In this document: positions 11,273 through 14,240 of the stretch, piece by piece | Position numbering within the stretch: the first letter of the stretch is position 1 | Layout of the letters: each line of letters opens with the position of its first letter | Source: Bacteroidales bacterium | GTDB taxonomy: Bacteria; Bacteroidota; Bacteroidia; Bacteroidales; F082 | Assembly: GCA_015488735.1 (NCBI GenBank) | Contig: WFNG01000028.1 | Coordinates: 1-35,205 of the forward strand | Reading direction: 5' to 3' | Length of the DNA: 35,205 bases | Made by a program: the position numbers and the translations under genes | Notes under the pieces: model-generated | Database searches by the model: none | Told to the model about the DNA's origin: nothing | What the model saw: the letters and a program-made list of their open reading frames with translations, nothing else

Positions 11273-12457
11273 TTAAAAATCCAAACACCCTCTTTTTATC
11301 GCTTCTTTTCCATATCGTTTCCGGATGTGGTCCATGGCCTGATAAAGATGGGCCAGCTCCGGTTTCTCATCAAAAAGATCCAGCTGTTGGCTGCCGCCTG
11401 TCAGATGACTGAAACGTACGCCGATAAGACGAATGAGCATTCTTCGCTGGTAGAGTCTGTCGAAAAGTTCCAAAGCAGTATTGATTAAAACATGATCGAA
11501 GGCGGTGTAGGGAAGCCGCTTTTGCAGCGTGTGGGTGTCGAAATTGGCATAGCGGATTTTTACGGTAACACAACCGGTGAGTTTTTGCTTTGTCCGTAGC
11601 TCAAAAGTAATTTTCTCTATCATGGAAATAAGCACATTACGTAATTTATGCAAATCAATGGTATCACGTTCAAAAGTGCGTTCTGTACTTATGGATTTCT
11701 GTTCGGAATAGGGGACTACCGGCGCGGGGTCAATGCCGTTGGCTTTCTTCCAGATGACAAGCCCGTTTTTGCCCATTACCTGCACCAGCATTTCAGGCGG
11801 AATCAGGCTCAACGTGTGAATGGTAGAAACGCCCATGGAACGCAGCAAATGATAACTTTTCGTTCCCACCATGGGAATTTTCCGGATGGAGAGTGGAAAC
11901 AAGAAAGGTTTTACTTTTCCGGGAGGGATGTACATCTCACCGTTGGGTTTTGATTCACCCGTGGCTATTTTCGAAATGGTTTTGTTTACTGACAGCCCGA
12001 AAGAGATGGGCAATCCTGATTCTCTGATGATACGTTGCCGCAGCTCGTGTGACCATTTTAAACTTCCGAAAAAGCGATCCATACCAGTGATGTCGAGATA
12101 ATGCTCGTCGATGGAAGCTTTTTCGTAAACGGGTGCACTTTCGGCAATGATATCTGTCACCAACCGGGAATACTTGCTGTATTGCTCCATGTCGCCACGG
12201 ATAAAGATGGCATCTCCACACAGCTGCTTTGCCATACGTACAGGCATGGCCGAATGGACGCCAAACTGTCGGGCTTCGTAACTGCAACTCGCCACCACAC
12301 CGCGATCGGAAAGTCCGCCGATAATTACAGGTTTGTCTTTTAAGGCACTGTTTGTCAGTCGCTCCACCGACACGAAAAAGCTGTCCAAATCCAAATGTAC
12401 AATCGTCCGTTCCCCCATCGCATAAAAATATTTTGTCTGAATACTTGACATTTGCAA
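11273..12457 (-). CDS. dinB: DNA polymerase IV (Y-family); alternative start at 12418 (MGERTIVHLDLDSFF)
   Basis: HLDLDSFFVSVE, SYEARQFGVHSAMP, YEKASIDEHYLDIT, GLSVNKTISKIATGESKPNG. Confidence 0.96.
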   Translation of the reverse strand: MQMSSIQTKYFYAMGERTIVHLDLDSFFVSVERLTNSALKDKPVIIGGLSDRGVVASCSYEARQFGVHSAMPVRMAKQLCGDAIFIRGDMEQYSKYSRLVTDIIAESAPVYEKASIDEHYLDITGMDRFFGSLKWSHELRQRIIRESGLPISFGLSVNKTISKIATGESKPNGEMYIPPGKVKPFLFPLSIRKIPMVGTKSYHLLRSMGVSTIHTLSLIPPEMLVQVMGKNGLVIWKKANGIDPAPVVPYSEQKSISTERTFERDTIDLHKLRNVLISMIEKITFELRTKQKLTGCVTVKIRYANFDTHTLQKRLPYTAFDHVLINTALELFDRLYQRRMLIRLIGVRFSHLTGGSQQLDLFDEKPELAHLYQAMDHIRKRYGKEAIKRGCLDF

Positions 12458-12474
12458 TATTTTGTGTACTTTTG
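12445..12474 (+). promoter_or_regulatory. Bacteroidota-type promoter (TTG-N19-TACTTTTG) reading rightward
   Basis: TTG at 12445-12447 and TACTTTTG at 12467-12474, 19-nt spacing; matches TTG/TAnnTTTG -33/-7 consensus. Confidence 0.6.
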
Positions 12475-12489
12475 ATTAAAATTTAATCA
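12473..12489. promoter_or_regulatory. Perfect 17-nt palindrome TGATTAAA-A-TTTAATCA, candidate repressor operator
   Basis: 8-bp perfect arms, 1-nt centre, overlapping the end of the -7 box between dinB and the S24 regulator. Confidence 0.5.
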
Positions 12490-12534
12490 TTTTTACGACG
12501 GCAATATAATCATTTTGGAAACAAAAACGGAAAA

Positions 12535-12585
12535 GAAACCACGAAGTCCCGCGAAGGACATCACCAAGTCGCACAAAGCAAAAAG
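12535..12585 (+). repeat. ACCACGAAG/CACCAAG repeat, left-type arm L1
   Basis: gaaaccacgaagtcccgcgaaggacatcaccaagtcgcacaaagcaaaaag; same modules recur at 13232 and 13311 and, inverted, at 12781, 13260 and 13360. Confidence 0.85.
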
Positions 12586-12597
12586 CATCCAAACGCT

Positions 12598-12620
12598 CAT
12601 TCGGATTTGCAATCCGAATG
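12598..12620. repeat. REP-like palindrome 1 (CATTCGGATT-TGC-AATCCGAATG)
   Basis: 10-bp perfect stem, 3-nt loop, core GGATTTGCAATCC. Confidence 0.8.
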
Positions 12621-12715
12621 CCACAGCAGCCGGTATTCCTGCAACAGAGACCATGTTAGATGAAAATCATCCTTTGAGAAATTTCCGGCATGCAGTACAA
12701 AGCGAAACCGGTTTT

Positions 12716-12732
12716 GGCGATTACAAATCACC
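12716..12732. repeat. REP-like palindrome 2 (GGCGATT-ACA-AATCACC; minus strand GGTGATTTGTAATCGCC)
   Basis: Same GATTTGNAATC core on the minus strand; one mismatched pair; overlaps a further AACCGG...CCGGTT inverted repeat. Confidence 0.65.
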
Positions 12733-12743
12733 GGTTCTTTTTA

Positions 12744-12766
12744 GGTCGGGATTTGAAATCCCGACC
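12744..12766. repeat. REP-like palindrome 3 (GGTCGGGATTT-G-AAATCCCGACC)
   Basis: 11-bp perfect arms around 1 nt, same GATTTGNAATC core. Confidence 0.8.
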
Positions 12767-12780
12767 AGCATTGGGGAAAA

Positions 12781-12830
12781 ACCTTCGTGTCCCTTCGTGA
12801 AAACCCTTGGTGCCCTTTGTGGTAAAAGAG
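12781..12830 (-). repeat. ACCACGAAGG/CACCAAGG repeat, right-type arm R1
   Basis: accttcgtgtcccttcgtgaaaacccttggtgccctttgtggtaaaagag; 3 differences from R2 (13260-13309). Confidence 0.9.
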
Positions 12831-12852
12831 TAAAAACTTAAAGCAAGCTAAA

Positions 12853-13230
12853 ATGGATGTTTACACTGAAGATATTTTTAAAGAGATTCTGGATTGTTCT
12901 TTTCGGGTACACACAGTATTAGGCCCCGGGTTGCTGGAAAGTGCTTATGAAGAATGTTTGTTTTATGAATTAAAACAGGCAGGCTTGGATGTTGAAAAGC
13001 AAAAGTCTTTACCTCTTATTTATGAAAAAGTAAAATTGGAAGCCGGATACAGGGTCGATTTGATGGTGGAAAGCAGGATAATAGTTGAAATAAAGTCTGT
13101 TGAGACTATGGCCAACATTTACATGGCTCAAATACTAACTTATTTAAGGTTGTCCGGCTGTCGGCTTGGCCTACTAATTAATTTTAACGTAAAACATTTA
13201 AAAGATGGAATCAAACGAGTTATTTTATAA
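12853..13230 (+). CDS. GxxExxY family protein (PD-(D/E)XK nuclease-like fold)
   Basis: GLLESAYEE (GxxExxY motif), YRVDLMVESRIIVEIKSVE (D...ExK), 125 aa; matches known family length and layout. Confidence 0.92.
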   Translation: MDVYTEDIFKEILDCSFRVHTVLGPGLLESAYEECLFYELKQAGLDVEKQKSLPLIYEKVKLEAGYRVDLMVESRIIVEIKSVETMANIYMAQILTYLRLSGCRLGLLINFNVKHLKDGIKRVIL

Positions 13231-13231
13231 T

Positions 13232-13259
13232 GAAACCACCAAGGTGCACAAAAGAAAGT
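13232..13259 (+). repeat. Truncated left-type arm L2
   Basis: gaaaccaccaaggtgcacaaaagaaag, starts 1 nt after the GxxExxY stop codon. Confidence 0.75.
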
Positions 13260-13309
13260 ACCTTCGTGTCCCTTTGTGAAAACCCTTGGTGTCCTTCGTG
13301 GTAAAAGAG
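13260..13309 (-). repeat. Right-type arm R2
   Basis: accttcgtgtccctttgtgaaaacccttggtgtccttcgtggtaaaagag. Confidence 0.9.
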
Positions 13310-13310
13310 G

Positions 13311-13359
13311 GAACCACTAAGTTGCACGAAGTGCATCACCAAGGCACACAAAAGAAAAA
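13311..13359 (+). repeat. Left-type arm L3
   Basis: gaaccactaagttgcacgaagtgcatcaccaaggcacacaaaagaaaaa. Confidence 0.85.
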
Positions 13360-13409
13360 ATCTTCGTGTTCCTTCGTAAGAACCCTTGGTGCCCTTCGTG
13401 GTAAAAAAG
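13360..13409 (-). repeat. Right-type arm R3
   Basis: atcttcgtgttccttcgtaagaacccttggtgcccttcgtggtaaaaaag. Confidence 0.88.
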
Positions 13410-13439
13410 AAAACAAACATCAAAAAATCTAAAATCAAA

Positions 13440-14240
13440 ATGTATTTCAAAGACAACATTAAATTACTCAGAAAGCGCAGAGGCCGCACGCAGGACGAAG
13501 TGGCTTTTGCCCTCGAAATGAAACGTCCCTCGCTGAGTGGCTATGAAAACGGCGTGGCGCAACCCAATCTGAACGCGCTGATGCGCTTCTCGGAATATTA
13601 CGGCGTAGCCATTGACACGCTGGTGAAAGTGGATTTATCCTCCCTTTCAGAAAACCAGCTCTCGCAACTCGAACGTGGTTATGATATTTATGTGAAAGGC
13701 AGTAACCTGCGTGTGCTGGCCACCACGGTGGATCAGGACAACGAAGAAAACATCGAACTGGTAAACGAAAAAGCCAAGGCAGGCTATGCCACCGGTTTTG
13801 CCGATCCTGATTATATTAAGGTGCTGCCTACTTTCAAGCTGCCGTTTCTGTCGAAGCAAAAAAAATACCGTACTTTTCAGGTAAGTGGCGACTCCATGCT
13901 GCCCATTCCTGATGGTTCCTACGTTACCGGCGAGTTTGTGCAGGATTGGAATTATATCCGTAACCACCACGCCTACATCGTGCTGACCAAAGAAGATGGT
14001 ATCGTCTTCAAAGTACTGGAGAGTAAGATAAAAGAAGATGGAAAAATCAAACTGTACTCTTTGAATCCGCTCTATCTCCCTTATGAATTACCTGTTAGCG
14101 AAATCCGGGAAATCTGGAAATTTGTCAATTACATCAGTTCCGAAGTCCCCGAACCCAACAAGGAAAAAGACCGGCTGGCAGAAGAGGTGAAGCAGCTGAA
14201 ACAACAGGTGCAGGCCATCCAGATGAAATTGAATTTATAA
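13440..14240 (+). CDS. XRE-family transcriptional regulator with S24 (LexA/CI-like) domain (likely start 13440, inside ORF 13386..14240)
   Basis: N-terminal HTH (NIKLLRKRRGRTQDEVAFALEMKRPSLSGYENGVAQPN) and S24 part with FQVSGDSMLPIPDGSYV; C-terminal coiled coil. Confidence 0.92.
   Translation: MYFKDNIKLLRKRRGRTQDEVAFALEMKRPSLSGYENGVAQPNLNALMRFSEYYGVAIDTLVKVDLSSLSENQLSQLERGYDIYVKGSNLRVLATTVDQDNEENIELVNEKAKAGYATGFADPDYIKVLPTFKLPFLSKQKKYRTFQVSGDSMLPIPDGSYVTGEFVQDWNYIRNHHAYIVLTKEDGIVFKVLESKIKEDGKIKLYSLNPLYLPYELPVSEIREIWKFVNYISSEVPEPNKEKDRLAEEVKQLKQQVQAIQMKLNL

Follow-up and report, generated by a model that had tools for sequence, protein, structure and literature searches.

GxxExxY nuclease-like genes lie between inverted modular arms: a unit in a Bacteroidales genome and its relatives

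Described systems that resemble the unit

The closest described counterparts of the unit studied here, as the available excerpts of the sources present them, are the REPIN-RAYT system, in which a REP-associated tyrosine transposase is coupled with REP/REPIN palindromes (PMC3116915, PMC3686654); free-standing homing endonuclease genes of the T4 type (PMC2988022), with PD-(D/E)XK enzymes among the listed homing families (PMC6083498); and the Coxiella IVS, which lies in 23S rRNA, is excised from the RNA by RNase III and carries an S23p ORF encoding a four-helix bundle (PMC4990558). Heptameric GACAGAT repeats precede S23p in the Coxiella IVS (PMC4990558), and TAACTGA heptads occur in Beggiatoaceae (PMC4679880). 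The available text of these two papers contains no statement linking heptads to four-helix genes in general.

We compared these systems with GxxExxY genes, one of which lies in the window, i.e. the whole 35,205-nt stretch of Bacteroidales DNA that was analysed. As in the REPIN-RAYT excerpts, the enzyme gene sits between inverted palindromic repeats, gene-less kin of the repeats are found elsewhere in the genome, and enzyme and repeats co-vary. The enzyme, however, is PD-(D/E)XK and Cas4-like rather than a Y1/HUH transposase (the window gene, the PF13366 match, has no Y1_Tnp profile match), the arms are four-module arrays at both gene edges, the repeats can be single-copy, and arm families are many and lineage-specific. 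With free-standing homing genes, as excerpted, the unit shares a small intergenic nuclease gene that splits a symmetrical site, a locus with both occupied and empty alleles, and gene transfer without adjoining DNA. It differs from them in that its target palindrome varies and recurs in the genome, cleavage is at present a proposal, and the gene is in neither an intron nor an intein; 50,697 phage records, searched for a phage origin, held no match, and the eight plasmid records with a match are all non-mobilizable.

The Coxiella IVS is likewise a short selfish unit, with terminal inverted repeats whose loop contains the ORF (PMC4990558, in excerpt), whereas the GxxExxY unit lies between protein-coding genes and its ORF encodes a PD-(D/E)XK nuclease. 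IVS identity was rejected for the window unit: the genes on both sides are protein-coding (window ORFs, profile search), the unit is outside rRNA, and an Rfam search of 12300-13600 gave no credible match and nothing above the gathering score. Judged against these excerpts, the GxxExxY system matches no one of REPIN-RAYT, homing genes and IVS on all defining features. A literature search confined to freely accessible journals (subscription titles and preprints lie outside it, and an earlier description is possible) found GxxExxY rarely, mentioned in passing as a neighbouring domain in the text available, TIGR04256 not at all, and PF13366 scarcely. The proteins themselves are common, being present in 23 of 40 relatives and in 27 of 30 Flavobacterium genomes, with up to eight matches each.

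The unit in the window and its protein

The features of the locus are as follows.

11273 to 12457, minus strand: dinB-type DNA polymerase IV, left neighbour, context outside the unit (IMS and IMS_C profile matches)
12529 to 13444, no strand assigned: inserted tract, delimited against the empty site of same-genus genome G006 (blastn of the window against L354, junction sequences)
About 12535 to 12584, plus strand: left arm L1, modules CCACGAAG..CACCAAG..CACAAAG
12600 to 12766, no strand assigned: REP-type hairpins nested between L1 and R1, TTCGGATTTGCAATCCGAA at 12600-12618 and GGTCGGGATTTGAAATCCCGACC at 12744-12766
12781 to 12830, minus strand: right-type arm R1, 47/50 identical to R2, ending 22 nt before the ATG
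12853 to 13230, plus strand: GxxExxY gene, 125-aa PD-(D/E)XK protein (profiles, alignment, AlphaFold2)
13232 to 13259, plus strand: short left arm L2, starting 1 nt after the stop codon
13260 to 13309, minus strand: right arm R2 (sequence comparison)
13311 to 13359, plus strand: left arm L3, 79% identical to L1
13360 to 13409, minus strand: right arm R3; the L3-R3 hairpin has an ssDNA fold z of -4.25
13440 to 14240, plus strand: HTH/peptidase S24 regulator, right neighbour, context outside the unit (profile matches)

The initial annotation had described three left-type and three inverted right-type arms built from ~10-bp modules around the gene. Sequence inspection found all of them in place and reproduced the details, namely 3 differences in 50 nt between R1 and R2, the 22-nt gap from R1 to the ATG, and the start of L2 one base past the stop. 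Left-arm words of the palindrome are of the CRCNRAG type and right-arm words are their complement, again in ~10-bp modules. The order R1-gene-L2 is also present as described, but its polarity is unusual, relatives (including the orthologous G005 locus) usually having a left arm before the gene and a right arm after it. The window gene lies between complete palindromes on both sides, and REP hairpins sit inside the L1-R1 interval; this arrangement represents a rearranged or derived form of the unit.

REP hairpins of the GGGATTTGAAATCCC type occur within arm palindromes at two places in two species (12600-12766 of the window and the gene-less palindrome at the ftsY locus of G004, L267), as if palindrome centres were a target for REP insertion. 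A 108-aa ORF at 12515-12841, spanning L1 to R1, was taken as spurious, as profile searches gave it no family match.

Allowing up to two mismatches, the arm core CCTTCGTGNNCCTTNGTG occurs at 31 places in the window genome (G000), compared to 6 for a reversed control pattern, so the arms are not a product of chance. Most of the 31 are gene-less palindromes at other intergenic sites; gene-less arms occupy about ten other places in this genome. Several arm copies and GxxExxY fragments also sit at or near the ends of contigs C23, C173, C193, C165 and C207, so that assembly probably breaks at these repeats and leaves some of them uncounted.

The ORF at 12853-13230 is, as annotated, a full-length GxxExxY protein, scoring 147.2 bits against TIGR04256 (cut-off 35) and 140.1 bits against PF13366 (cut-off 22). 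In an alignment of 28 sequences, residues E29, D69, E79, K81, Q93 and Y97 are invariant across the family. The E, D, ExK (E79-x-K81) and QxxxY (Q93xxxY97) elements are thus all present, in agreement with the PD-(D/E)XK fold first suggested, and the PD-(D/E)XK/QxxxY active site of the window ORF is predicted to be intact. The AlphaFold2 model is confident (pLDDT 92). Its best Foldseek neighbours in the PDB are Cas4 SSO0001, LHK-Exo, lambda exonuclease and AddB, all with weak E-values (best, 2.5e-3); Holliday-junction resolvase and the catalytic domain of homing endonuclease I-Bth0305I rank lower, also with weak E-values. The family profile matched no PDB chain sequence.

In Pfam, Cas4 is the commonest second profile match (16 of 28 family members, best 6e-5). 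With the nuclease domains of Cas4, lambda exonuclease and AddB, GxxExxY proteins share the PD-(D/E)XK core with QxxxY, weak Cas4 profile matches and the top fold neighbours. Unlike these, they are half to two-thirds the size, have no conserved Fe-S cluster cysteines, have no CRISPR or helicase partner nearby, and are typically wrapped in modular arms. Cas4 identity was rejected for the window protein, which matches the Cas4b model with an E-value of only 0.021; the 28-sequence alignment contains no invariant cysteine, and no cas genes were recognised among the window ORFs. The protein is best called a mini Cas4/RecB-like nuclease. We also rejected a defence-system reading, PADLOC defence models giving only weak matches of the Cas4 type and similar.

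Arms across loci and their match to the protein

For a word-independent test, we took the 300 nt on each side of a gene and scored their similarity in inverted orientation, with a threshold flank-to-flank score of at least 30. Of 79 GxxExxY loci from a GTDB scan (mostly Bacteroidota, with Cyanobacteria, Ignavibacteria, Planctomycetota, Verrucomicrobiota, Acidobacteria and others), 61% reached the threshold; among 498 control ORFs from these contigs, 2.2% did. At a stricter threshold the values were 39% and 0.6%. We then considered 70 Flavobacterium loci, which were fetched after the hypothesis was formed and played no part in forming it. Here, 86% scored at least 30, versus 7% when flanks were permuted among loci. 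Inverted modular arms are thus far commoner beside GxxExxY genes than beside other genes, an enrichment that the initial annotation had proposed to look for. These data show that the arm-gene-arm architecture recurs across phyla.

Nearly all GxxExxY genes of relatives are wrapped in tandem words, but the wording is gene-specific (CTCTGTG, CTTTGCG, CACAGATT, TCAGTG, AATCCG and others). A search of the relatives for the exact arm of the window found it only in the window genome and G004, and almost nothing else; arm sequences vary among clades, so the pattern escapes any search with a fixed sequence. In 65 of 129 loci, the 120 nt downstream contain at least two copies of the commonest word, CTYNGYG; in 59 of 129, the 120 nt upstream contain at least two of its complement. 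The corresponding count for far windows is 1 of 96. Spacing between words is mostly 9-10 and 12-13 bp, with autocorrelation peaks in agreement, and the first word lies a median of 6 nt past the stop and 15 nt ahead of the start.

Several individual loci were also inspected. Units lie tight in operons between two CoA-transferase subunit genes (L042 and L061, in G003 and G005) and between fabD and fabG in Sphingomonas (L348), with reading frames on either side apparently unbroken. In two families of the order (L050, L052), differently armed GxxExxY units lie between what appear to be the same two sugar-nucleotide genes, suggesting that one site may have been invaded repeatedly. At the G001 ortholog (L157; C69:4419-5732), the right-arm word pair CCTTAGAGCGCCTTTGTGG is present in ~31 copies, at ~25-bp spacing and in one orientation. 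Genes of the four-helix-bundle S23/IVS family (TIGR02436 loci L163-L190, e.g. L163, L165, L169, L177 and L185) have inverted tandem words in their flanks as well. The period of these words is strictly 7 bp (autocorrelation 0.42/0.45 at lag 7 versus about 0.28), and the IR score is at least 30 in 12 of 29 loci.

Across 126 loci, arm similarity increases with protein identity. In a restricted Mantel test, which excluded pairs that were at least 80% identical or had distant flanks in common, rho was 0.43, a value reached in 0 of 500 permutations (best permutation, 0.12). For pairs in the 60-70% protein identity bin, near flanks were similar in 18% and far flanks in 0.1%. Divergent GxxExxY genes of a single genome have unrelated arms. 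Clade-wise arm similarity, together with unrelated arms inside single genomes, indicates that arms are cognate to the protein clade; at the level of sequence, arms follow the nuclease clade, not the host genome. This co-variation fits the initial suggestion that the repeats are a substrate or binding site, although binding itself stays a prediction from sequence. Genus-wide counts of the arm pattern, uncorrected for kinship, were 20, 72, 30 and 33 in four genomes with the window gene clade and 0-12 in eight without it; most hits in G001 sit at the gene's own locus. One cross-phylum case, from a 'Rhizobium' bin (L101), was excluded because the DNA is probably mis-binned: its protein is 89% identical to a Flavobacteriaceae one.

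The palindromes might instead be independent intergenic repeats, possibly hairpins that act in RNA processing or as terminators, in which the gene lands or is kept without acting on them. Most arm copies in the window genome do lie away from any GxxExxY gene, palindromes are found at gene ends in operons, and S23/IVS four-helix-bundle genes also have inverted tandem modules in their flanks. However, arms that follow the protein clade rather than the genome, and that abut start and stop codons in many phyla, make this account quite improbable. The modules around four-helix genes also obey a different grammar (period 7, versus 9-10/12 for GxxExxY), indicating that each family has its own arms.

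Empty sites, exchange and a proposed route of spread

We compared the regulator locus in 11 genomes of the genus (G000, the window genome, with G001, G002 and G004-G011). GxxExxY lies upstream of the regulator orthologue in G000, G004, G005 and G001, and a solitary right arm is left in G002. In G006, G011, G007 and G008, dinB adjoins the regulator with no insert between them; G009 and G010 are also without it. In the sister species G006, 42 nt replace 916 nt of the window. Homology between the two (blastn against L354) is last seen at window position 12528 and resumes at 13445, and thus the element as first delimited is essentially the inserted tract. Among these genus genomes the dinB locus is therefore not fully conserved, and empty sites, which the initial annotation had suggested seeking in relatives, exist in four of them.

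Synonymous sites point to recent movement. Between G000 and G004, which carry the gene at the same site, fourfold-site identity is 38/41 (0.93) for the GxxExxY gene, compared to 72/142 for dinB, 58/105 for the regulator and 44/129 for the TolC-like gene (0.34-0.55); for ftsY it is 96/147. The difference between gene and regulator is significant (Fisher p = 6e-6). Against G005 the gene matches at only 9/26 fourfold sites, which argues against a general constraint on its synonymous sites. These data show that the gene and part of the arms were exchanged after the species split, without adjoining DNA, and they strengthen the initial view of a small mobile or selfish unit. Some copies appear to be long established, since fourfold sites at the hemW locus and in the G000/G005 comparison show no higher conservation for the gene than for the genes beside it.

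The same observations make a domesticated host function very improbable. Nuclease and palindromes would then form a regulatory or repair module (e.g. autoregulation via the arms, or defence), as might be expected from catalytic residues that are intact family-wide and from orthologous placement in some genera, e.g. between CoA-transferase subunit genes in two genus members. Yet presence is patchy within the genus, the same-site transfer is recent, many copies are degraded with internal stops, and the PADLOC matches are weak.

In 30 Flavobacterium genomes, gene-less palindromes at hemW were counted by eye, since an automatic palindrome score failed on module variants. Arm-gene-arm was present in 3 genomes and a gene-less palindrome in about 15, with nothing or something else in the rest. 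The gene-less palindromes are of the same design, directly follow the hemW stop codon and have the same outer ends, TTAACC...GGTTAA. An uninterrupted palindrome in G045, which folds at z = -5.6, is the counterpart of the G040 arms TTAACCGCAAGG...|gene|...CTTTGCGGTTAA; in this case, the gene sits at the palindrome dyad. Different palindrome types replace one another at this one site, and only about 6 of 15 gene-less palindromes match the GxxExxY arms of their own genome (top fifth), a mixed result. In the ftsY-rimO spacer, gene-less palindromes are present only in G000 and G004 and absent from nine other genus genomes. One Flavobacterium genome has almost no arms beyond the unit itself, indicating that high-copy spread is not general. 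Gene-less palindromes thus exist at the same site and elsewhere, and so do empty sites.

The explanation we put forward, and judge about evenly balanced between right and wrong, is that of a selfish palindromic unit whose Cas4-like nuclease would recognise its own arms and spread, homing-style, by repair copying. The unit would consist of a palindrome of ~10-bp modules with a mini Cas4/RecB-like PD-(D/E)XK nuclease gene at the dyad. The nuclease would recognise cognate arms, probably as an oligomer on hairpin or duplex, and cut gene-less palindromes or similar sites; repair off a gene-bearing copy would then put the gene into the dyad. By splitting the site, the inserted gene would protect it, as in homing. 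Palindromes that lack the gene would be either targets or non-autonomous products of decay, and the window unit may later have been amplified to tandem palindromes on both sides, one of which REP hairpins entered. A homing-like route would explain the dyad position, the occupied and unoccupied alleles and the transfer without neighbours. Mobility and cognate specificity of the unit are well supported; binding, cleavage and the copying route are inferred. That the nuclease cleaves the uninterrupted palindrome, specifically, is less likely than not. Cas4, lambda exonuclease and AddB act mostly at DNA ends, not as site-specific endonucleases, and the predicted fold, with mostly DNA-end enzymes as nearest neighbours at weak Foldseek E-values, counts against a homing-type cutter.

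A transposon/MITE route would explain the new gene-less insertions at ftsY, seen in G000 and G004 only. Here, the arms would serve as terminal inverted repeats and the nuclease, possibly aided by host factors, as the transposase; the gene-less palindromes would be internally deleted copies mobilised in trans, as in REPIN-RAYT. The dyad position of the gene, with an arm on either side, the outer ends common to gene-less palindromes, and numerous arm copies only where the cognate gene clade is present are all in line with this. We nevertheless consider it unlikely: palindrome types swap for one another at one site, the Flavobacterium genome noted above has almost no extra copies, and the modelled fold resembles Cas4/lambda exonuclease, not a DDE, HUH or recombinase fold. 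No target-site duplication is obvious by eye at dinB, ftsY or hemW, but the empty sites compared there are too diverged for a firm reading.

Returning to the selfish, homing-like unit, we tentatively propose, with somewhat less than even confidence, that GxxExxY genes and modular palindromes constitute an undescribed class of prokaryotic selfish elements in many phyla. A standalone mini Cas4-like nuclease would read a code of ~10-bp modules, spaced at 9-10/12-13 bp and able to evolve, and would spread both itself and, acting in trans, palindromes that lack the gene; four-helix S23 proteins would be surrounded by a sister class with heptad modules. A cognate palindrome for each gene gives the GxxExxY family a testable role, and the pairing of gene and arms would explain a widespread class of intergenic repeats (CTTTGCG, CTCTGTG and CTTCGTG words). 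As naturally matched protein-site pairs, these units could serve to work out a DNA recognition code.
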